Below are positions 4,544-34,584 of a stretch of 64,000 nucleotides of DNA, piece after piece. A program made the translations under genes and the position numbers. Positions within the stretch are counted from its first letter, which is position 1. The number at the start of each line of letters is the position of its first letter. A model generated the notes under the pieces. That model was not told the DNA's origin. It saw only the letters and a program-made list of their open reading frames with translations, and made no database searches. This DNA is from Phycisphaerales bacterium (GTDB lineage Bacteria > Planctomycetota > Phycisphaerae > Phycisphaerales > UBA1924): positions 1-64,000 of the forward strand of contig JADLGW010000028.1 in NCBI GenBank assembly GCA_020849105.1, written 5' to 3'.

Positions 4544-5551
4544 GTGACGGCCCAGGATGGTCCCAGCCTTCAAGTGCGGATCGCCGGCATCCGGCTCCGT
4601 AACCCCGTGATCCTCGCGGCCGGAACGTGCGGCCACCTCGACGAGATGGCGGACGTACTGGACCTGCCGCGGGTCGGTGCGATCGTGACCAAATCCATCA
4701 CGCGCCTGCCGCGGGAGGGCAACCCGACCTGGCGCATCCTGGAGTGCCGGGGCGGGATGCTCAACGCGATCGGCCTGGCGAACCCGGGGCTGGATTCCTT
4801 TGTCTCCCACGTCGCGCCGCGGATCGCGGGCGTCCCGTGCCCCGTGATCGGCTCCGTCGCCGGGTTCAGCATCGACGACTATGTACAGGTCGCGGCAGCA
4901 ATGGACGAGATTGATGCGCTGGCGGGCGTCGAACTCAACGTTTCGTGCCCGAACGTACACGGCGGGACGGAGTTCGGGTCGGACCCGGCGGCCCTGTCGG
5001 ATCTGGTGGCGAAGGTCCGCCCGGTCCTGAGTCGCAAGCCCATGATCGTCAAACTCAGCCCGATTGCGGCCGGGCTGCCGACAATCGTGGATATCGCGCG
5101 GGCCGCCATCACCCCGGCCGCGGCTGCCCGATCAGGTGGGGCTTCGCCCTCTGGCGGCCCTGACGGGCGTCCGGGCGCCGATGCCTTGTCCATTTCCAAC
5201 ACCATCCCAGCCATGGCGATCGACGTAGAGAGCCGCCGCCCGCGGCTCGCCAACACGACCGGCGGCCTGTCCGGCCCAGCCCTGCATCCTGTGGCGGTTC
5301 GGTTGGTGCATCTTGTCTACACCCAGGTGGCGAAGGATGCGGGGATCCAGGTCATCGGGGTCGGCGGCGTCTCCACATGGCGCGACGCCGCGGAGTTCAT
5401 TCTGGCCGGGGCCACCGCTGTACAGGTAGGCACCGCGCTCTTTGCCGACCCTCGCTGCCCGATCCGCATTGCCAAGGGCCTCAAGAACTGGACACTTCGG
5501 CAACATGTTTCTTCGATTGAGGAACTTGCCGGATCTGTTAGCCTCGCCTAA
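4544..5551 (+). CDS. pyrD: Dihydroorotate dehydrogenase, class 1B type
   Basis: Oxidises dihydroorotate to orotate in pyrimidine synthesis. It is an FMN TIM barrel of 335 residues: NPVILAAGTCGH at the N-terminus, GAIVTKSIT, the active-site cysteine in ELNVSCPNVHGG (class 1 enzymes use Cys, class 2 Ser), IVKLSP, and the FMN phosphate site IQVIGVGGVSTWRDAAEFILAGA. The LANTTGGLSGPALHPVAVRLV block favours class 1B (PyrD/PyrK-type), but no pyrK is nearby. It starts at GTG 4544. About 21 extra residues (near 190-210, rich in Ala, Gly, Pro and Ser) sit just before GADALSISNT, where relatives have none; this may be an in-frame repeat insertion. Confidence 0.93.
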   Translation: MTAQDGPSLQVRIAGIRLRNPVILAAGTCGHLDEMADVLDLPRVGAIVTKSITRLPREGNPTWRILECRGGMLNAIGLANPGLDSFVSHVAPRIAGVPCPVIGSVAGFSIDDYVQVAAAMDEIDALAGVELNVSCPNVHGGTEFGSDPAALSDLVAKVRPVLSRKPMIVKLSPIAAGLPTIVDIARAAITPAAAARSGGASPSGGPDGRPGADALSISNTIPAMAIDVESRRPRLANTTGGLSGPALHPVAVRLVHLVYTQVAKDAGIQVIGVGGVSTWRDAAEFILAGATAVQVGTALFADPRCPIRIAKGLKNWTLRQHVSSIEELAGSVSLA

Positions 5552-5640
5552 CCTCTGGGCCCTGTTCCAGAAAACAGAGTCCAAGGGGTGCCCGGTTGCA
5601 ATGGAACCGATCTTTCTCCGAACATGAATAGGATCGGGCG

Positions 5641-5976
5641 ATGCCCGGTGTTGGGCTGGCCTTGGCGATGAACGGAAATCGAGTGTCAGCGCGATCGAAG
5701 ATTGTGGTTGGGCTGGCCGTTGCGGCGGCAGGCATCGCGGTGGCCCTGATTGCCGCTCCGTGGGGGCCTGCGCCGCACGCGGAGCCCCTGTTCGCTGTTC
5801 CCGTCGCACCGGCGGTAGCGGCCGGGCATCAGCCGGCAGCGCGGGGCCCGATCCGGGTGACCAACGTCCCAGGCGGAACCCAGGGCCAGAGGTCGCCCGC
5901 GACCCCCGGCGTCGCACAACCGGCCACAGGCGGCACAACCGACAACTCCGCGGTTGCGGGCCGGGTGGTGCGGTAA
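5641..5976 (+). CDS. Small hypothetical protein with one membrane anchor
   Basis: A 111-residue protein of unrecognised family. One hydrophobic segment (KIVVGLAVAAAGIAVALIAA, about residues 20-40) follows a short basic N-terminus and could be a signal anchor. The rest is Pro/Ala/Gly/Thr-rich and probably disordered and periplasmic. An alternative ATG lies 27 nt downstream (5668). It stands alone between pyrD and a likely terminator at 6017-6054. No function is proposed. Confidence 0.5.
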   Translation: MPGVGLALAMNGNRVSARSKIVVGLAVAAAGIAVALIAAPWGPAPHAEPLFAVPVAPAVAAGHQPAARGPIRVTNVPGGTQGQRSPATPGVAQPATGGTTDNSAVAGRVVR

Positions 5977-6016
5977 CGCCGGGCGGGTACCGCGCGTATC
6001 ACACTCGTTAGCATTG

Positions 6017-6054
6017 AACGGGCCGCGGCACGGGTGTGGCCGCGACCCGTTTTT
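6017..6054 (+). terminator. Rho-independent terminator
   Basis: A 12-bp stem (AACGGGCCGCGG with CCGCGACCCGTT, one mismatch) around an 11-nt loop is followed by TTTTT. It would end transcription of the small gene at 5641-5976, just before the serine hydrolase start at 6069. Confidence 0.6.
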
Positions 6055-6068
6055 CGTTGGGTGACGCC

Positions 6069-7238
6069 ATGAAGATGCTGGCTGCGTTGTGCGCGGGGTT
6101 GATCCTGGCGGTGGCTGGCGCGCGGGCGCAGCCGAAGCCGCTGCCGGACCTGCTGGATCCGATCCGCACAAAGCACAAACTCCCGGCCCTGGGAGGGGCG
6201 ATCGTGACCACGGATGGGCTGGCGGCAATCGGGGTGTGCGGAGTTCGCCGCGCCGGCCACGACGAGGCGGTGACGGACAACGACCTGTGGCACCTGGGGT
6301 CGTGCACAAAGGCGATGACCGCGACGCTGGTGGCGCGGCTGGTGGAGCGGGGGACGCTCAAATGGATGACGACGCTCGGCCAGGGGCTGCCGGACATGAA
6401 CATGGACCCGGGCTGGCGCGACGTGACGCTGGAGCAACTCCTGTGCAACCGCGGCGGGGCGCCGAGCGGGCTGGAGAGGGATGGGCTGTGGGGGCGGCTG
6501 TGGCGCTTCCGCGGCGCGCCAACGGAGGCGCGGCGGCTGCTGACCGAGGGGGTGCTGAATCACCCGCCGGAGTACGAACCCGGGTCGAAGTTCCTCTACT
6601 CAAACTCCAACTTCGCGATCGCGGGGTACATGGCGGAGGCGGCGACAGGCACGGCCTGGGAGGACCTGATGCGGCGGGAGGTCTTCGGGCCGCTGGGCAT
6701 CACGTCCGCGGGCTTCGGGGCCCCCGGCAACCCTGTGTCAGGGGATTCCGGCGCCGATCAACCCCGCGGGCACTCGGCGGGCGTGCCGCTGGAGCCGGGG
6801 CCGTTCTCGCGGTCGGACAACCCGGTGGCCATCGGACCCGCGGGCATCGTGCACATGTCACTGGCGGACTGGAGCAGGTTTGTCACGGCGCACCTGCGTG
6901 GGGCGGCCGGGCTGGAGGTCCGTGCCGCGGACGGCACGCCCTTCCTGACGCCGGAATCGTGGACAAAACTGCACACGCCGCCGGCGGGCGGGTACGCCAT
7001 GGGCTGGTCGGTCGCGACCCGCCCGTGGGCCAAGGGGAACCAGGAAGGCGACACGGGGCTCGTGCTGACTCACAGCGGATCGAACACGATGTGGTACTGC
7101 GTAACGTGGCTGGCGCCGGAGCGCGGGTTCGCCGTGCTCGTCACCACGAATACGGCGGCGGACGGCGGACGGGCGACCGATGAGGCGGCGTCCGGGTTGA
7201 TCCGGTACTGGCTGAACCGGCGCCCGGACCGACCTTGA
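6069..7238 (+). CDS. Exported serine hydrolase, class C beta-lactamase family
   Basis: A 389-residue protein with a clean signal peptide (MKMLAALCAGLILAVAGARA). The three signatures of class C beta-lactamase/DD-peptidase-like hydrolases are present in order: SCTK (SxxK nucleophile, about residue 78), YSNSN (YxN, about 178) and HSGSN near 337 in place of the KTG box. It probably acts outside the cytoplasm on a peptide or ester; the family is broad, so no antibiotic role is claimed. ATG 6069 was chosen because the signal peptide begins there; an earlier in-frame ATG would lie across the terminator hairpin. Monocistronic. Confidence 0.85.
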   Translation: MKMLAALCAGLILAVAGARAQPKPLPDLLDPIRTKHKLPALGGAIVTTDGLAAIGVCGVRRAGHDEAVTDNDLWHLGSCTKAMTATLVARLVERGTLKWMTTLGQGLPDMNMDPGWRDVTLEQLLCNRGGAPSGLERDGLWGRLWRFRGAPTEARRLLTEGVLNHPPEYEPGSKFLYSNSNFAIAGYMAEAATGTAWEDLMRREVFGPLGITSAGFGAPGNPVSGDSGADQPRGHSAGVPLEPGPFSRSDNPVAIGPAGIVHMSLADWSRFVTAHLRGAAGLEVRAADGTPFLTPESWTKLHTPPAGGYAMGWSVATRPWAKGNQEGDTGLVLTHSGSNTMWYCVTWLAPERGFAVLVTTNTAADGGRATDEAASGLIRYWLNRRPDRP

Positions 7239-11415: not shown

Positions 11416-13362
11416 ATGATCCTCCGCGCCCTCCTCGCGCTGATCCCCGCCCTCGCCGCGCCCGCCGCGCTGGCCCAGCCCGAGTCGCCCGCCACCGTCA
11501 CGGTCAAGCCTCTGCGCACGACAGTGACACCCGGCGACCGCCTGCCCATCGCCGTCGTCTTCGACACCGCCCCCGGCTGGCACATCAACACGAACGACCC
11601 CGTGGCCCCGCCGGAACTCGGCGGCTTCGTCCCCTTTCCGACCACGATCAGCGTCACCACGCCCCCCGGGGCTCGCGCCCTGCCGACACAGTGGCCGACC
11701 GTGCAGCAGGTGGAGGTCCGCTTCTCCGGCTCGCCCGTGCAGTTCGGCGTGTTCGACGGCCGCGCCGTCGCGTTCATCCCGCTCACCATCGCGCAGGACG
11801 CCGCCCCCGGCACGGAACTGAGTGTCGAAGTCAAGGCCGAGTGGCAGACCTGCGACGACTCGATCTGCCTCATGCCCGACAGCCTGACTCGGGCCGTCAA
11901 ACTCAGTGTCATCAGTCTCGACCAGGCCGCCGCGCTCCCCCCGCCGCTCGCGGACGCGGACTTTGCCTCCTTCGACCCCGCGTCCTACAGCCGCGACCCT
12001 TCCGCCGCGACGGCCCCGCGCGCCGCCCCCCCGCCGGCATCAGCGGGCGTCCGGTTCCAGGCCTTCGGCTGGTCCTTCACCATCGACCCCACCGGCGGCG
12101 TCGGCCTGGCCCTGCTGCTGCTCACCGCCGCCCTCGGCGGGTTCCTGCTCAACCTCACGCCATGCGTCATGCCCGTCATCCCGCTGAAGATCATGGGCCT
12201 CAGCCACGCCGCCGGGAATCCGGCCCGCTGCCTCTACCTGGGGGTCATGCTCTCCGTCGGGGTCGTCGCGTTCTGGATGGCGATCGGCCTGGCGATCGCC
12301 TTCATCAGCGGCTTCACGGCGATCAGCACGCTCTTTCGCACGCCGTGGTTCTCGCTGGGCGTCGGCGTGTTCATTGCCGCGATGGCCGTCGGCATGCTCG
12401 GGCTGTTCAGCGCCCGGCTCCCGCAGGCCGTCTACCTCATCAGCCCCAATCACGAGACGGCCCGCGGCTCCTTCCTTTTCGGCATCATGACGGCGGTGCT
12501 CTCGACCCCCTGCACCGCGCCGTTCATGGGCGCCGCGGCAGCGTGGGCCGCCACACAGAACCCGGCGATCACCCTCGCCACCTTCGCCGCGATCGGCGCC
12601 GGCATGGCCCTGCCCTACCTCGTGCTGTCGGCGCGTCCGCAGTGGGTCGCCCGTTTCCCCCGCACCGGCCCCGCGAGCGAACTCGTCAAGCAGGTCATGG
12701 GCCTGCTCATGCTGGCCGTCGCCGCGTTCTTCCTCGGTGTCGGGAGCGTCGCCCTCGTGCCGGGCCTGCCCGCCTGGGCCAAGGGCGCCCACTGGTGGGC
12801 CATCGCCGGCCTCGTCTGTGCCGCGGCCCTGTGGCTCATCATCCGCACGTTCCAGATCACCCGGAGCCTCGCCGCCCGCGGCACATGGACCGTCGTGGGC
12901 GGCGCCCTTGCCGCCGCGTTTGTCTATATCGCCGTCCTCCTCGGCATCCCCGATACGTCCATCCCGTGGCGGGTGTACGGCGGCCCGCCGGTCGCGGCCG
13001 GTGAACCGCGGCCGATCAGCCCGGCGGACCTCGCGGCGCTGCGTGACCAGCCCGTCGCCCTCGTCATCGATTTCACCGCCGACTGGTGCCTGAACTGCAA
13101 GACGCTCGAGCAGGCCGTGCTCCGCAGCAAGGCCGTCGTTGCCGCCCTCAACCAGAGCGATGTCGTTCCCGTCAAGGTGGACCTCACCGCCAGCGATGCC
13201 GCGGGGTGGTCACTCCTCAAGGAGTACGGCGCCGTCGGTATCCCGCTGCTCGTGATCGAAGGCCCCGGCCTCCGAGAACCCTTCCGCAGCAACGCCTACA
13301 CGCCCGGTCAGGTCCTGGACGCCGTCCGCGGCGCACGCGGGCAGACCGCCGCCCGGCGATAG
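11416..13362 (+). CDS. DsbD-like thiol:disulfide interchange protein
   Basis: Carries reducing power from cytoplasmic thioredoxin across the inner membrane to periplasmic thiol proteins. The 648 residues show a signal peptide, an N-terminal periplasmic domain with a cysteine pair (CDDSIC near residue 146), eight or so membrane helices of the CcdA/DsbD type with the two conserved cysteines (LTPCVMP near 251, STPCTAPFMG near 364), and a C-terminal thioredoxin fold with ADWCLNCK near 557. This is the full alpha-beta-gamma DsbD arrangement. It starts at ATG 11416, where the signal peptide begins. It stands alone between serS and the convergent trehalose genes. Confidence 0.93.
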   Translation: MILRALLALIPALAAPAALAQPESPATVTVKPLRTTVTPGDRLPIAVVFDTAPGWHINTNDPVAPPELGGFVPFPTTISVTTPPGARALPTQWPTVQQVEVRFSGSPVQFGVFDGRAVAFIPLTIAQDAAPGTELSVEVKAEWQTCDDSICLMPDSLTRAVKLSVISLDQAAALPPPLADADFASFDPASYSRDPSAATAPRAAPPPASAGVRFQAFGWSFTIDPTGGVGLALLLLTAALGGFLLNLTPCVMPVIPLKIMGLSHAAGNPARCLYLGVMLSVGVVAFWMAIGLAIAFISGFTAISTLFRTPWFSLGVGVFIAAMAVGMLGLFSARLPQAVYLISPNHETARGSFLFGIMTAVLSTPCTAPFMGAAAAWAATQNPAITLATFAAIGAGMALPYLVLSARPQWVARFPRTGPASELVKQVMGLLMLAVAAFFLGVGSVALVPGLPAWAKGAHWWAIAGLVCAAALWLIIRTFQITRSLAARGTWTVVGGALAAAFVYIAVLLGIPDTSIPWRVYGGPPVAAGEPRPISPADLAALRDQPVALVIDFTADWCLNCKTLEQAVLRSKAVVAALNQSDVVPVKVDLTASDAAGWSLLKEYGAVGIPLLVIEGPGLREPFRSNAYTPGQVLDAVRGARGQTAARR

Positions 13363-26058: not shown

Positions 26059-27573
<1,515 letters not shown>

Positions 27574-28032: not shown

Positions 28033-28096
28033 CGGCCGGCACCTCCGCAACCACCCCGCGGCTGCGCGGGTACACTCGCAAGGAGTCTCCCCTTCC

Positions 28097-29038
28097 ATGC
28101 ATACACGCGCCGCCCCTGTCGTTCTCTTGATTGCCCTCGCCGCGGCCTCCTGCTCCACACCCGCCACGCCGCACGCCGCGACACGCGCCTGGCCCGCTGT
28201 TTCCGACCCCGCCGCGGCCAGCCTGCCCGGCCTGGTCAACGTCGTCGCCTACCACGACAACTTCTGGTCCGGCTCAGCACCCGAGGGTGCGCAGGGGTTC
28301 CGGACGCTGAAGCGGATGGGCGTCCGCACGGTGATCAGCGTCGACGGCATGGAACCAGAGGTTGCCCTGGCCCACGAGCAGGGCCTGCGGTACATCCACC
28401 TGCCCATCGGCTACAACGGCATGACCGATGCTCGCCGCGCCGAACTGGCGCGCGCCGCCCGCGACGCCATGAAGGATGGCCCGGTCTACATCCACTGCCA
28501 CCACGGCAAGCACCGCAGCGCCGGCGCCGCGGCCGCGATCGCCGTCAGCCTCGGATGGGACCGGCCCGGCGACGCCGTGGAACGGATGAAGGTCTCCGGC
28601 ACCTCCCCCAACTACAAGGGCCTGTACGCGTGCGCGGCCACGGCAACGGTGCTCTCGGCCGCGCAACTGGACGCCGTGCCCGGCGCCTTCCCGGAGGTCT
28701 CGCCCCCGCCGGGCTTCGTGAAGGGCATGGTGGAGATCGACCAGCACCACGACAACCTGAAGGAGATCGAGGCCGCGGGCTGGACGACGCCGTCCGGCCA
28801 CCCGGACCTGGTGCCGGTCGCGGAGGCCGGACGCCTGGCCGACCTGCTGCGCTACGCGGCGGGGTCGCCGGCGGCGGCCGCGAAACCCGCCGATTTCGCG
28901 GCTCACCTGCTCGCCAGCGCGGAACTGGCCCAGGCCATTGAGGACGGCCTGCCCGCGCGTGACGCGGCCGCGCTCTCCGCGAAGTTCAGGCTGCTCGGCG
29001 CCTCGTGCACGGACTGCCACACGAAGTACCGCGATTGA
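28097..29038 (+). CDS. Lipoprotein-type cysteine phosphatase fused to a cytochrome c'-like domain
   Basis: A 313-residue envelope protein. The signal ends in AAASC (Cys19), a likely lipidation site. Residues about 45-190 resemble a dual-specificity/DUF442-like phosphatase: FRTLKRMGVRTVISVDG and the P-loop HCHHGKHRS, a Cys-x5-Arg site near residue 133. Residues about 210-313 are helical (MVEIDQHHDNLKEIE...) and end in CTDCHTKYRD, where CxxCH at residues 304-308 is a covalent heme site in the C-terminal position typical of cytochrome c'/c556. Both domains would be outside the cytoplasm. I know of no characterised protein with this pairing. Confidence 0.85.
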   Translation: MHTRAAPVVLLIALAAASCSTPATPHAATRAWPAVSDPAAASLPGLVNVVAYHDNFWSGSAPEGAQGFRTLKRMGVRTVISVDGMEPEVALAHEQGLRYIHLPIGYNGMTDARRAELARAARDAMKDGPVYIHCHHGKHRSAGAAAAIAVSLGWDRPGDAVERMKVSGTSPNYKGLYACAATATVLSAAQLDAVPGAFPEVSPPPGFVKGMVEIDQHHDNLKEIEAAGWTTPSGHPDLVPVAEAGRLADLLRYAAGSPAAAAKPADFAAHLLASAELAQAIEDGLPARDAAALSAKFRLLGASCTDCHTKYRD

Positions 29039-29041
29039 GGG

Positions 29042-29929
29042 TCACGGACACCCGAGCGCAAACTTGGTCGTGAAGCACCCGAAGTCGGCGAGATTGAGGA
29101 CCGTGTCGGCGTTGCAGTCGGCGTACGGATCGCCGAGCGCAAACTTCGTTGTGAAGCACCCGAAGTCGGCAAGGTTGAGCGCGCCGTCGCCGTTGCAGTC
29201 CGGGTAGCACGGGGCAGGCATCCACGCCAGCCCCTGGATCGCGCCCGAAGTCCCGGTGATCGCGCCCAGGCTGGTGACCACCCCCGTGACCGTGCTGATC
29301 GTGACCAGCCGGTTCGGGTTGACCGTGGTGGCGTAGAGCAGGCCGGTGGAGGAGTCGATGTCCAGCCCGCGCCAGATGCCGGGGAACGGCATCACCGCCA
29401 GTTGGCTGGTCTGGCCGCTGGGGGCGTGGATCTTGTAGACCGCCTCCGTCGCGCCGTCGCTGAGGCCGAAGAGCGTCTGGCTCGTGGTGTTGTACCCCAG
29501 GCCCTCGATATCCGTCGCCCCGGAAATGGTGGACAGCAGCGCGGACCCACCTGTCGTCAGGTTGTATTCGTGCAACTCGTTGGCGTTGTTGTCGGACACG
29601 AGCAGCCGCGGCCCCACGGGGTCGAAGGCAAGGCCGTTGGCGTTATTGGTGAACAGCCCCGAGGCGATGAGGGACGTCGCCCCCGTCGCCGGGTTGATCC
29701 GGTACAGCCCGCCGTCGCCGGGGTTGAGGGCGTAGAGCGTGTTGGTCGCGGGGTCCGCGGTCAGGCCGTTCAGCGGCCCCGTGCCGACCGGTCCGACCAC
29801 CGTCGCGACGAGGGTCGCGGGGTCGATCTTTACGAGTTGGTTCGTCCCGATGTTGACGCCGTACAGGGTGCCCTGCGCGGCAGCGACGGACGCCGCGGTG
29901 AGCAGCACACCGATCATGGCCCTGGTCAT
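29042..29929 (-). CDS. Secreted propeller-like protein with GC-type dockerin tail
   Basis: 295 residues: a signal peptide (about 1-20, MTRAMIGVLLTAASVAAA), a beta-propeller of repeated units (LYGVNIGTNQLVKIDPAT, LYALNPGDGGLYRINPATG, LLYATTVNPNRLVTIST), then two dockerin-like loops (CYPDCNGDGALNLADFGCF and YADCNADTVLNLADFGCF) ending TKFALGCP. It has the same plan as the left-edge gene. ATG 29929 is preceded by GGAGGACCACC. Its stop lies 3 nt from the stop of the convergent phosphatase gene, with no terminator between them. Confidence 0.88.
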   Translation of the reverse strand: MTRAMIGVLLTAASVAAAQGTLYGVNIGTNQLVKIDPATLVATVVGPVGTGPLNGLTADPATNTLYALNPGDGGLYRINPATGATSLIASGLFTNNANGLAFDPVGPRLLVSDNNANELHEYNLTTGGSALLSTISGATDIEGLGYNTTSQTLFGLSDGATEAVYKIHAPSGQTSQLAVMPFPGIWRGLDIDSSTGLLYATTVNPNRLVTISTVTGVVTSLGAITGTSGAIQGLAWMPAPCYPDCNGDGALNLADFGCFTTKFALGDPYADCNADTVLNLADFGCFTTKFALGCP

Positions 29930-29966
29930 GGTGGTCCTCCGGCCGCAGGATACCACGGCGCACACG

Positions 29967-29986
29967 GGGTACCCCGCTCCGCGGCG
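29967..29986. repeat. GGGTACCCCGCTCCGCGGCG repeat
   Basis: A member of the short palindrome family also found at 20439-20463 and, inverted, at 47541-47563. It lies in the intergenic space between the type II secretion operon and the dockerin gene. Confidence 0.55.
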
Positions 29987-30026
29987 CGGCACGCCCGGGG
30001 AGAACTCCTGAACCCCCCTCGGGCGC

Positions 30027-31400
30027 TCACGATTCGGGCGGCGCGACGGCCATCGCCACGATCCGCAGACGCAACGGGTCGCGCGGCACGGGCCCGATCA
30101 GGATGTAGGGCCGCTCCGGGTTGGTGGTCGCCCGCGGCACATACGGGTCGCCCAGCACCGGGGCCGCTCCGGGGGCCGACGCTGTGCCGGCAGCATCCCG
30201 GAGCGCCCTGTCGGCGACGAAGACCAGGCCGTCCGGGGTGGCCGCGAAATACCCGGGCGGATCACCGGCCGACAGGGCCGCCGCGACCGTGTTCGGAGGA
30301 AACAGGTCGAACCCGGCCCGGGCCGGGTCGAAGCGCCCGAGGCGCTGCGCCCGCGGCACGAGCAGCAGCAGGTCGCGGGCCGGCGCACCGGGATCTGTCG
30401 ACCGGACCGGCAGGGCCGGCGCGGCGCCGGCGGCGACCTGGTACGCCATCTCGGCACCGGACGGCCCGGTCAGCCGCGCGCGGGCCACGACGGCGCCCAG
30501 GCTCGTGCGCCCCGCCGCCGCGGGGTCGGGCGTCAGGGCGATCGCGGCAACGTCCAGCCCGGCGGGCGACTCGATGAGCGTGAACACCGTGGTCGTGTCA
30601 CCGGTGGTCATCGGGAAGGTGTACGACTCTCCCGCGTCCGAGCGCACGTCCTCCGAACCGTCCCGCCGGCGCAGGACCAGTTGCCGGGGCGCGTCGTAGC
30701 CGTCGCCGCGGGTGTAGAGAAGTTCACCGCCGGGGGTGAGCACGGCGTGCGCGTTCACGGCGTCGCCCCGGGCCAGCCATGTGATCCCGCCGCTGAGCCA
30801 GTCCGCCAGGCCGATCCACCGCGCGCCATCGGGGCGCGGCCACTCGACCAGGAAGCCCTCGTCGCCGCATCCGCGTCCGAGGACGGCGCCGGTGGGCAGG
30901 GGTGTGCCGAAGACCACCGGGACCGGCGCCGCCCCCGCCAGGGAGTACACGATGACTGTGGTCCTGAGCGGCACCGCAGCCCCGCGGGCCGCCAGGAGGG
31001 TCTCCCACGTCGGCGCTTCGCCGCCCTCAACGGCGATGAACCGGCCGTCGGGCGACACCAGCGGGAGCACCTGCCCGTCATACCCGACCTGACCCAGCGG
31101 CCGCACCTGGACCCGCACACGCGCCGTGCTGCTGGTGGCGCCGAGCGCGGGCTGGGCGACGGGGCCGTCGGGCATGGCAACGGGGGCTCCGGTGCGCGCG
31201 GATGGGTCCTGTCCGTGCACGCGGATGCCCCGCGATGGGGACTCGTCCACGGTGACGCAGGCGGCGAGCGCAAGGCAGAACAGCGGGAGAACTCGGGCGG
31301 CGGCGCCGCGGGCTCGCGTCCGTGGGAGGCGCTGCGCCGGAGCGGCGGGAACGGGCGCCGGGCGACACGGCCGTCCGGAGCCGCGGCACCCGGGCCGCAT
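30027..31400 (-). CDS. Putative lipoprotein at the end of the type II secretion operon
   Basis: 457 residues. A long basic N-terminus leads to a hydrophobic signal with lipobox LALAACV, so it is probably lipidated. The remainder is beta-rich with propeller-like strands (LVSPDGRFIAVEGGE, HAVLTPGGELLYTRGDGYD, YFAATPDGLVFVADR). The family is not recognised. Its ATG overlaps the gspD stop by 1 nt, so it is coupled to the secretin. By position it could be a secretin-assembly or pilotin-like factor, but pilotins are much smaller; this is speculative. Confidence 0.75.
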   Translation of the reverse strand: MRPGCRGSGRPCRPAPVPAAPAQRLPRTRARGAAARVLPLFCLALAACVTVDESPSRGIRVHGQDPSARTGAPVAMPDGPVAQPALGATSSTARVRVQVRPLGQVGYDGQVLPLVSPDGRFIAVEGGEAPTWETLLAARGAAVPLRTTVIVYSLAGAAPVPVVFGTPLPTGAVLGRGCGDEGFLVEWPRPDGARWIGLADWLSGGITWLARGDAVNAHAVLTPGGELLYTRGDGYDAPRQLVLRRRDGSEDVRSDAGESYTFPMTTGDTTTVFTLIESPAGLDVAAIALTPDPAAAGRTSLGAVVARARLTGPSGAEMAYQVAAGAAPALPVRSTDPGAPARDLLLLVPRAQRLGRFDPARAGFDLFPPNTVAAALSAGDPPGYFAATPDGLVFVADRALRDAAGTASAPGAAPVLGDPYVPRATTNPERPYILIGPVPRDPLRLRIVAMAVAPPES

Positions 31401-33943
31401 TACTTGTTCTCCCGCAGATCGGGGGCCTCGCCGCGGTTCTTCTCGTCCCAGTGGAAGCGCTGGCGGAGCGTGTCGAGCGGGCCCCGGAGGGGCTGGGTCA
31501 CGGCGTCCACGTCGTCCACGTTGTCCACGACGACGGGGGTGATGAACAGGATGAGTTCGGTCTCCTTGATGGTCTTGTCGCGGGAGCGGAAGATGGCCCC
31601 GAGCAGCGGGATATCGCCCAGGATCGGCACCTTGCGCAGGACGTTCGAGTCCTCGCTGCGGAGGATGCCGCTGATGACGATGGTCTGGCCGTTCTTGACG
31701 ATGACCTGGGTGGTGGTCTCGCGCCGGTCCACGATGAAGCCGCCGAAGAGGGTCTGGCCCGGGACGATGGAGGAGAGTTCGAGGTTGACACGGAGGTCGA
31801 CCTTGCGGTCGGGCGTGATGCGCGGGCGGGCGCGGAGCTGGATGCCCACCGCGCGGTAGTCGAAGGACTGGACCAGGTTGCCCTGGTTGTTCGTCTGCGT
31901 GTCGGTGACGAAGGGGATGTCCTGGCCGTCGAAGAACTCCGCCTCCTGGTTGTCGCTGGTGAAGATCTTGGGCTCGCTGAGGATGTTGACGGCGGTCTTC
32001 TGGGCCAGGGCCTGGAGCAGCACGTTGAGGTTCGCGTTGACGTTCAGGACGGAGGTGTCGAAGAGGTTGTTGCCGAAGACCTGGTTCTCCGTGCCGCGCG
32101 TCCCCGCGCCGATGCTGATGGAGTTGTCGGGGCCGGCGGCGGGGCTGATCGCCGTGCTCGACCACCGCAGGCCGAGGCTGGTCGCGTCGTCGCGGGCAAC
32201 CTCCGCCACGATGGCGGAGATGAGGACCTGCCGCCCCGGCTGGTCGAGTTGCCCGATGAGTTCGATGATGGAGTTCTTGTATTCCGGCGGCGACAGCACC
32301 ATCACGGCGTTCTGACGCCACACCGGGACGAGGCGCACCTTCGCCACAAGGTTCGAGGCGCCGCGCGAATCCGTCGGCGGGCGCGCCCGCTGCCACCAGA
32401 AGGTCATGGTGGTGCTGCTCGTGGTGTCCTGGGTCGTATTGCCCGTGCTGTCGGTGGTGGTCTGCTGCGTGGCGAACGGGCTGGCGTTGGCCTCGCTGTC
32501 GGACAGGCCCGACTCGGCCCGGGGGATCTGGGCCAGCGTGCCCTCCTGGGAGAGCAGCGTGTTGAGTTGCTCGGCCAGTTCCTCGGCCGACGCGTGCTTC
32601 AGTTCAACGATGGCGGGCAGGCCCACGGTCTGCGGCTTGTCGAGTTCCTTGATGATCTCGTCGATGACGGCGATGTTGTCGGGTGATTTCGCCACGACCA
32701 GCAGACGGCCGGACTCCGGCATGGCCTGGAACGAGAACTGCCCGGCGAGGCGGCCGACGCCCTGGCTCGCCCCTCCCGACGCGGTGCCGCGGTTCGCGTT
32801 GTTGCCGCCGCCCCCCCCGCCCCCTCCCCCCCCTCCGCCGCCGCCGGTGACGCCCTCGGGCTGGCCGAAGGTCTGCTGGAGCAGGTCGCGCATCTTGATA
32901 GGGTCGGTGTTCTGGAGGTCGTAGATCTTGGGGACGACGGCCTCCGGCTCCAGGGGCAGGTCCCAGTTCTTCTCGATCAGGTCGCGGACCTCCGACAAGA
33001 TCATCGGCTCCGCGACAACCGTGACGGCGTTCTGCTGGGTGTTGGCGGTGACGCGGAGGTTCTCGGAGGCGGCCGCGCCGCCCGGACCGGACTCGCCCTG
33101 GTTGCGCTGGTTCTGGTTGTTCTGCCCGCCCCCCGGGCCGCCGAAGAACTGGAAGTTGCGCCCACCGCCGCCGCCCTGGTTGTTCCGGCCGCGACCGGCG
33201 GCCTGCCCGGATTCGGCGGAGAAGAGTTCCTCGATATTGGCCTTGATCTGCGCGGCGTCGGCGTAGCGGAGGCGGAACGTCTCGCTGACGAGCGCGGCCG
33301 AGGAGGGGCGGTCGAGCGACGTGATCAGGCGTTCCATGCGCTGCAGGAGGGCGATGTTGCCCATGACGGCGACCTGGTTGGACTCCGCATCCACCGAGAG
33401 TTTGGCGTACTTGGGGATGGCGTCCTTCAGCAGTTCGCCCATCTTCTCGGCGGTCGAGTTGCTCAGGGGATAGACCTTCTCCGCCATCAGGCCCAGGTCG
33501 CCGCGTCCCAGCACGGATTCCTTCGGGCCGATCACGGGCACGTCCTGCCGGTCTACCTCGGTGATGTCCCGCAGCGTGATGACGCCGCCGGACTCGACCA
33601 CGGCGACACCGGCCTGGTGCAGCGCCAGGAAGACCAGGTCCAGGGCCTGCTCCTGGGGAATGGCCTGGTCGTTCATCACGGTGATGGGCCGGGTGAGGAC
33701 GTCAGGCTGCGGCATCACGACCATGCCGGTGGCCTTCACGATGAACGGGATGAGTTTGTCGACCGTGACCTTGTCGAAGGCGAGGACCGTGGGCTCGTCG
33801 TTCTTGAGCGAGCGGCGGCCCGGGAGCGGGGGGCGTTCCGCCGCCGGGGCATCGGCGCGGGGCGGCGGTGCGCCGTTCTGCGCCAGCGAGGTTCCTGCGG
33901 CGAGCACGAGGACCGCGGCGGGGGTGTAGCGGAGGAAGCGCAT
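31400..33943 (-). CDS. gspD: Type II secretion secretin
   Basis: Forms the outer-membrane pore of the type II secretion system. The 847 residues comprise a signal peptide (about 1-21), N0 and several N1-N3 repeats (LSVDAESNQVAVMGNIALLQ, LRVTANTQQNAVTVVAEP, FQAMPESGRLLVVAKSPDN) and the C-terminal secretin domain from about 560 (VLISAIVAEVARDDATSLGL, QDIPFVTD, VGIQLRARPRITPD, VPILGDIPLLGAIFR). A run of 14 glycines near residue 370, encoded by long C-rich tracts on the plus strand, and Gly/Asn-rich linkers sit between N domains. It lies between the gspC-like gene and the lipoprotein. Confidence 0.95.
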   Translation of the reverse strand: MRFLRYTPAAVLVLAAGTSLAQNGAPPPRADAPAAERPPLPGRRSLKNDEPTVLAFDKVTVDKLIPFIVKATGMVVMPQPDVLTRPITVMNDQAIPQEQALDLVFLALHQAGVAVVESGGVITLRDITEVDRQDVPVIGPKESVLGRGDLGLMAEKVYPLSNSTAEKMGELLKDAIPKYAKLSVDAESNQVAVMGNIALLQRMERLITSLDRPSSAALVSETFRLRYADAAQIKANIEELFSAESGQAAGRGRNNQGGGGGRNFQFFGGPGGGQNNQNQRNQGESGPGGAAASENLRVTANTQQNAVTVVAEPMILSEVRDLIEKNWDLPLEPEAVVPKIYDLQNTDPIKMRDLLQQTFGQPEGVTGGGGGGGGGGGGGGNNANRGTASGGASQGVGRLAGQFSFQAMPESGRLLVVAKSPDNIAVIDEIIKELDKPQTVGLPAIVELKHASAEELAEQLNTLLSQEGTLAQIPRAESGLSDSEANASPFATQQTTTDSTGNTTQDTTSSTTMTFWWQRARPPTDSRGASNLVAKVRLVPVWRQNAVMVLSPPEYKNSIIELIGQLDQPGRQVLISAIVAEVARDDATSLGLRWSSTAISPAAGPDNSISIGAGTRGTENQVFGNNLFDTSVLNVNANLNVLLQALAQKTAVNILSEPKIFTSDNQEAEFFDGQDIPFVTDTQTNNQGNLVQSFDYRAVGIQLRARPRITPDRKVDLRVNLELSSIVPGQTLFGGFIVDRRETTTQVIVKNGQTIVISGILRSEDSNVLRKVPILGDIPLLGAIFRSRDKTIKETELILFITPVVVDNVDDVDAVTQPLRGPLDTLRQRFHWDEKNRGEAPDLRENK

Positions 33944-33945
33944 GT

Positions 33946-34584
33946 CTACTCCTGGTCGGATTCGCCGGATGGCAGCGGCCCGTCGTACGCGATCGGGGGG
34001 GAGTCGCTCGCGGCGGTTGAGGGTGATCGAGAGGCGGGCGGCTGGGCAGGCTGCTCCTTGTTCACCACGGTGTCCGGCGCCAGGAGCGGCACGTCGAACT
34101 CAACACCCTTCCACAGGACCCTCGCGGACCACGGCGGGTTCAGGCCCAGCAGCGTGACGCCGCGGACCTCCGGACCGCCGATGGTGAGCACCGAGATGAT
34201 CTTGTCGCTGGCGCCCCCATCGCCCTTGTCCTTTCCGAACCACGCCGTGCCATTGACCATCGCGACCAGGACCGGGCCGGTGTAGGTGCTCGGCTTCGGG
34301 ACCGGGCGGGGCCCCTCGTCCTTTGGCGGGGGCGGGGGCGGAGGCGGCGGGGCGGCGGGGACGAAGAACAGAGAACGCCCGTCCACCTGGGCGAGTTGCG
34401 CCATGATCCTGTCGGACACCCCCGCGCCGGGCCCGGCGAGCGGGGCCGGCGGCTGCGGCCCGCGTGTCAGCAGCGCGACGGCGAGCGAGGGAACGGTCAC
34501 AACGATGATCAGGAGGGCCAGCGCGCACGCGACCAGCGCGGCCTGCACGGCGGGCCCCAGCCGAGCCCATGCGGAACGGGTCAA
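33946..34584 (-). CDS. GspC-like inner-membrane type II secretion component
   Basis: 212 residues: one N-terminal membrane helix (AALVACALALLIIVVTVPSL), a Pro-rich linker with nine consecutive prolines, and a periplasmic beta domain (VLVAMVNGTAWFGKD, ISVLTIGGPEVRGVTLLGL, WKGVEFDVPLL) resembling the homology region of GspC/PilP, which contacts the secretin N0 domain. There is no PDZ domain. The position right before gspD supports this role. It overlaps gspM by 4 nt. Sequence similarity is weak, so the name rests on topology and context. Confidence 0.7.
   Translation of the reverse strand: MTRSAWARLGPAVQAALVACALALLIIVVTVPSLAVALLTRGPQPPAPLAGPGAGVSDRIMAQLAQVDGRSLFFVPAAPPPPPPPPPKDEGPRPVPKPSTYTGPVLVAMVNGTAWFGKDKGDGGASDKIISVLTIGGPEVRGVTLLGLNPPWSARVLWKGVEFDVPLLAPDTVVNKEQPAQPPASRSPSTAASDSPPIAYDGPLPSGESDQE

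Follow-up and report, generated by a model that had tools for sequence, protein, structure and literature searches.

In the window, the 64,000-nucleotide stretch of a Phycisphaerales bacterium contig analyzed here, a single unbroken reading frame that starts with ATG encodes a 313-residue protein in which a PTP-fold domain is followed by a class II cytochrome c domain (Table 1). The original prediction that a Cys loop (HCHHGKHRS) and a terminal heme site (CTDCHTKYR, residues 304-312) are joined in one frame was confirmed. Chance motifs or a frame artefact as the source of the fusion were ruled out by the profile matches, the AlphaFold2 (AF2) models and the invariance of key residues in 88 homologues; the fusion is real. 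The N-terminus carries an export signal, and the protein is predicted to be exported, as had been proposed. The accompanying claim of lipidation fared less well: anchoring through Cys19 of the AASC motif is plausible but weak, the −3 residue being Ala and a lipobox-like Cys being detected, with a loose pattern, in 40 of 87 homologues.

Several other reading frames of the window were noted around the fusion gene. Directly upstream on the same strand, ∼520 bases away, an ORF at 26059-27573 (+) reads as an NtrC-type sigma-54 response regulator, with no sensor kinase seen adjoining it. Convergent with the fusion gene is an exported repeat protein (29042-29992, −), the end of which bears a pair of almost identical dockerin-like motifs (DCNGDGALNLADFGCFTTKFALG, then DCNADTVLNLADFGCFTTKFALG). 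Further downstream, an 847-residue secretin-like ORF (31400-34584, −), of GspD/PulD type by reading, adjoins a GspC/PilP-like ORF; the two probably belong to a cluster for type II secretion or type IV pili.

Table 1. Features of the fusion gene in the window, and of the separately encoded gene pairs in the coordinates of their own loci
Feature	Residues	Position	Strand	Basis or remark
Whole gene, PTP-fold/class II cytochrome c fusion	313 aa	28097..29038	+	ORF, profile matches, full-length homologues
Probable ribosome binding site AAGGAG		28080..28085	+	sequence; 11 nt 5′ of ATG
Export signal with possible lipobox AASC (Cys19)		28097..28153	+	sequence pattern alone
PTP/DSP-fold domain	43-194	28223..28678	+	AF2 model, Foldseek, VIA
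Asp83 of SVDG turn	83	28343..28345	+	invariant in 88 homologues
HLPIGYN segment	101-107	28397..28417	+	H101, P103, Y106 invariant
Catalytic P-loop HCHHGKHRS, predicted nucleophile Cys134, Arg140	133-141	28493..28519	+	
Four-helix bundle, class II cytochrome c fold	206-311	28712..29029	+	AF2, PF01322, VIA
Met211, predicted sixth heme ligand, helix 1	211	28727..28729	+	invariant in 88/88; b562 alignment
Conserved A-B loop WTTPSGHPDLVP, between first two cytochrome helices	229-240	28781..28816	+	
Heme attachment site CTDCH	304-308	29006..29020	+	CxxCH invariant in 88 homologues
Arg312 after CxxCH	312	29030..29032	+	invariant in 88 homologues
L151, PTP gene		4991-5566		
L151, cytochrome gene		5650-6081		follows the PTP gene
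L152, PTP gene		7966-7415		
L152, cytochrome gene		7418-6972		follows the PTP gene; 4-base overlap (GTGA)

AlphaFold2 modeling of the full protein from 78 aligned sequences gave two domains, with a mean pLDDT of 96.7 and a pTM of 0.89. Within the N-terminal half, residues 59-160 match PTP-type Pfam profiles. PF22784 (PTP-SAK) was matched with an E-value of 8e-6 and a score of 26.4 bits, slightly below the curated cut-off of 27, and the Pfam entry Tc-R-P likewise lay slightly below its cut-off (26.4 bits against 27), the PTP-type E-value being ∼1e-5. The top sequence match among PDB structures was TpbA (E 2.4e-10, phmmer). Structural comparison of this half with TpbA (4r0s) yielded a Foldseek E-value of 4.5e-7 and a VIA Z-score of 16.6, and the Z-score with DUSP23 was 17.0; the C-x5-R loop, HCHHGKHR, is thus present on a PTP fold. 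Also common in Planctomycetota are exported TpbA-like proteins of another, generic family, whose loop reads HCxHGxDRTG; no nearby CxxCH ORF was seen in the regions read for these relatives (L146-L150 and L154-L159).

For the C-terminal half, the two outcomes by which the predicted cytochrome was to be judged, a match to a c′/c556 profile and a four-helix bundle in a model, were both found. PF01322 (Cytochrom_C_2) matched residues 262-312 with an E-value of 8.8e-6 and 27.1 bits, above the cut-off of 26.5, and scored 29.7 bits against the cytochrome domain alone. The same profile matched 67 of 73 relatives at E ≤ 0.01, and in the host genome assembly the fusion protein was its sole match. Cytochrome c′ chains also appeared in the PDB sequence search, behind TpbA, with E-values of 0.02-0.05. 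When modeled alone, the domain formed a four-helix bundle (pLDDT 96.2) with helices at domain residues 7-27, 41-56, 66-88 and 91-112, the CxxCH motif lying in the last helix near the C-terminus. Foldseek matches to this domain were weak (best E 0.07), as is expected for a small helical bundle, and the class II assignment therefore rests on the sequence profile and the VIA alignment. The latter gave Z-scores of 13.5 with Kuenenia Kusta0087/0088, 12.2 with cytochrome b562 and 12.1 with cytochrome c′; values of ∼12-13 are no proof by themselves for a helical bundle, but they agree with the profile match and the invariant CxxCH.

Conservation was assessed by column counts over 88 distinct homologue sequences. 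Invariant in the N-terminal half are H133, C134, H135, H136, G137, H139 and R140 of the P-loop, together with G59, P62, V82, D83, A92, H101, P103, Y106, Y173, G175 and L176; invariant in the cytochrome half are M211, C304, C307, H308 and R312. Given that invariant residues occur in both halves, the two active sites have been retained together. Seven positions of the loop between helices A and B of the cytochrome (W229, P232, H235, P236, D237, L238 and P240) are conserved in 80-87 of the 88 sequences. As this WxxPxxHPDLxP loop lies outside the heme-binding motif and is apparently absent from the separately encoded cytochromes described below (L151 and L152), it may form an interface with the PTP domain.

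The conserved CxxCH suggests covalent heme loading of the window protein; the host genome encodes a cytochrome c assembly protein (Cytochrom_C_asm) and two COX1 genes. In the VIA superposition, residues 6-113 of the domain model align with residues 1-106 of b562. Carried in from the aligned ends, this places Met211 (domain residue 12) on Met7 of b562, and His308 (domain residue 109) coincides with His102; these b562 residues are its axial heme ligands. A Met at the distal site of c′-type proteins is not always an iron ligand. Nevertheless, the invariance of Met211 and its position on the axial Met7 of b562 argue against an open gas site, and the model makes a six-coordinate His/Met, c556-like electron-transfer heme more likely than a gas-binding one. 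Of the predicted cytochrome c′-like sensor, the class II fold therefore stands, whereas gas sensing is the less supported part.

The general acid of the PTP half is less constant than its P-loop. N107 aligns with the TpbA general acid D105 in an ungapped stretch of the phmmer alignment, so that the window protein has Asn where TpbA has Asp. Among the 88 homologues this column holds Asp in 44, Asn in 34, Ser in 6, His in 2 and Ala in 2, and a tree of 118 sequences requires at least 12 changes between Asp and other residues. The D105A variant of TpbA keeps about half of its catalytic efficiency (PMC4409338), and loss of the Asp at position 107 thus does not exclude a phosphatase; the invariant D83 or H101 might act as the acid instead. 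Because the general-acid Asp is absent, the name PTP-fold enzyme was chosen here over phosphatase. The fold and the C-x5-R loop of the original prediction are borne out, but the phosphatase label itself is uncertain, and other thiol chemistry is possible, given an acid position that is labile across the family.

The fusion proved to be widespread in one phylum. In all 80 of the genome loci fetched the match spans most of the protein, with two of them (L075 and L079) shortened by the contig end or the extent of the match, and nearly all are the fusion. They derive from Planctomycetota or from differently labeled metagenome bins that resemble Planctomycetota. Cultured planctomycetes with a homologue include Adhaeretor mobilis (L068) and Rhodopirellula baltica (L080). 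Six of these bins (L020, L029, L050, L054, L063 and L074) bear the labels Leptolyngbya, Chitinophaga pinensis, Kuenenia, Limnohabitans and Abditibacteriales; their homologues are planctomycete-like, and mistakes in binning or naming probably explain the labels. A match was found in 56 of 101 relatives, most of them the fusion. The survey across Planctomycetota called for by the original prediction showed the fusion to be conserved: the family profile was matched in 209 of 392 sampled genomes, and about 131 of the 392, approximately one third, contain the full-length fusion by a hand count of matches over essentially the whole length. In a plasmid collection, full-length matches were confined to two planctomycete plasmids, where the homologues are annotated “dual specificity protein phosphatase” or “hypothetical protein”; matches on Embleya plasmids covered the PTP part only.

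In two lineages the PTP relative ends short of the cytochrome part, and an exported class II cytochrome is encoded by the gene that immediately follows on that strand (L151 and L152; Table 1). PF01322 matched these separate cytochromes below its cut-off (E 5.7e-5 and 1.2e-3), and in both a Met can be recognized by eye where the fusion has Met211. The occurrence of the two halves as one protein in most lineages and as adjacent genes in others implies that they are functionally linked. A third candidate pair (L153) was set aside as unsafe: its PTP ORF (11981-12952) abuts the end of a contig, opens with a tRNA-binding-like stretch in frame with the PTP domain, and is probably a chimeric assembly.

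When all ORFs lying up to about 5 kb from the gene at 80+ loci were compared with one another, no widely shared neighbor emerged. The commonest recognizable one was an ABC ATPase, present at 9 of these loci at scattered distances. The gene thus stands alone, and its context names no substrate or electron partner. On plasmid pPL62-1 of Planctomyces sp. SH-PL62 (L113, 6936-10864), a cytochrome c oxidase cluster and a DUF3365 gene are found close to the homologue, an arrangement that did not recur generally.

The explanation that best accommodates these observations, although we hold it with a little under even confidence, is that of an extracytoplasmic PTP-fold Cys enzyme that is coupled to, and probably gated by, the respiratory redox state. 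Here, a two-domain protein would be exported and possibly anchored by lipid. Its N-terminal half would be a TpbA/DUSP23-type enzyme acting through the Cys134 thiolate and Arg140, most likely in phosphoester hydrolysis in the manner of TpbA, for example of phosphotyrosine in an envelope protein. The cytochrome half would carry covalent heme at C304 and C307, with His308 and probably Met211 as axial ligands. A heme that is probably six-coordinate would most likely exchange electrons with other periplasmic carriers rather than bind gas. Its redox state would then set that of the neighboring enzyme, either through an altered domain interface or through reduction and oxidation of the catalytic cysteine, such that enzyme activity would track the respiratory electron supply. 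Oxidation of the catalytic cysteine inactivates PTP-type enzymes. Export, heme loading, catalytic activity, His/Met ligation and control by the heme redox state are what we infer, and the coupling of the halves draws on the phylum-wide retention of the fusion and on the separate adjacent genes of other lineages. The labile acid position, Asn here, and the lack of a conserved neighbor that would name a substrate or partner count against this explanation. A wider proposal, which we regard as possible and put forward more tentatively, is that of a new class of extracytoplasmic enzyme, present across Planctomycetota, with a PTP-fold thiolate wired to its own c-type heme. Such an enzyme would either carry out redox reactions of a small sulfur compound or oxyanion, as a phosphatase-fold oxidoreductase, or be switched by electron supply, as a respiration-gated phosphatase.

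Given that the nearest matches are TpbA and DUSP23, phosphatase-type chemistry was ranked first and sulfur or other redox chemistry is its main rival. In the latter case the protein would be no phosphatase but a redox enzyme for sulfur compounds or small oxyanions, in which Cys134 would form a persulfide or thiosulfonate and the heme would take or supply electrons; SoxAX and TsdA offer an analogy for such heme-coupled sulfur chemistry. The PTP fold would play the part that it has in Blh, whose DUF442 domain is a demonstrated sulfurtransferase (PMC5823870). The DUF442 structure 3gxg is among the top structural matches to the PTP half (Foldseek TMt 0.69; VIA Z 14.9), PF04273 (BLH_phosphatase, DUF442) weakly matches 39 of 78 family members at E ≤ 0.01, and a thiolate linked to an electron carrier, with an unconserved general acid, suits redox chemistry. 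However, TpbA and DUSP23 match better than DUF442 in both sequence and structure searches, the window protein itself has no match to PF04273 up to an E-value of 1, no neighbor of any kind is widely shared, and the residual efficiency of TpbA lacking D105 keeps a phosphatase possible. We consider this reading unlikely.

Somewhat less probable still is that the two halves do independent jobs on one chain, the cytochrome shuttling electrons and the enzyme acting alone, with fusion merely co-localizing them. Each half is a complete domain, and the case for regulation is indirect. By contrast, the presence of the A-B loop in the fused proteins and its absence from the separate cytochromes hint at an interface, and the pTM of the full-length model suggests a fixed domain arrangement. 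That a five-coordinate c′-type heme binds NO, CO or O2 and thereby switches the phosphatase seems improbable: the domain shares its fold family with cytochrome c′, but a distal gas pocket has no need of a Met that is invariant, that superposes on the axial Met of b562 and that recurs at the matching place in the separately encoded partners. Finally, the PTP-fold domain might have lost catalysis and serve only to bind an anionic ligand, which it would report or present to the cytochrome. This would fit the Asn at the general acid position, but is very improbable, since invariance of Cys134, Arg140 and nearly the whole loop would be unusual for a pseudo-enzyme.

Both halves belong to known families, and no description of a PTP/cytochrome fusion, nor of a PTP-type enzyme carrying its own heme, was found in the open-licence papers searched. 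The family is widespread yet unnamed, and proteins now annotated as dual specificity phosphatases or hypothetical proteins would gain a function. With a phylum-wide fusion and adjacent genes elsewhere, the family offers a tractable test of whether an envelope enzyme can be directly controlled by respiratory electron flow, and a laboratory host would allow the proposed coupling to be examined.

Among characterized systems, the closest to the N-terminal half is TpbA (PA3885; PDB 4r0s, 4r0t and 2m3v), a periplasmic dual-specificity phosphatase of Pseudomonas aeruginosa with which the window protein shares its fold and export. Unlike the window protein, TpbA has no heme domain; its loop is HCKHGNNR rather than HCHHGKHR, the window protein having extra invariant His residues there, and its general acid D105 corresponds to Asn107. 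The DUF442 domain of Blh is structurally related, with a PTP fold and a Cys loop, but by profile the relationship is weak and extends to half of the fusion family, the window protein being nearer to TpbA; in Blh, moreover, the domain is joined to a persulfide dioxygenase and not to a cytochrome (PMC5823870). With the class II cytochromes c (c′, c556 and Kusta0087/0088, and the b562 fold) the C-terminal domain has in common the four-helix bundle, a CxxCH close to the C-terminus and the PF01322 match. It differs from them in being fused to an enzyme, in its short bundle of about 106 residues and in its WxxPxxHPDLxP loop, and its predicted axial Met is like that of c556 and b562 and unlike the gas-binding cytochromes c′.
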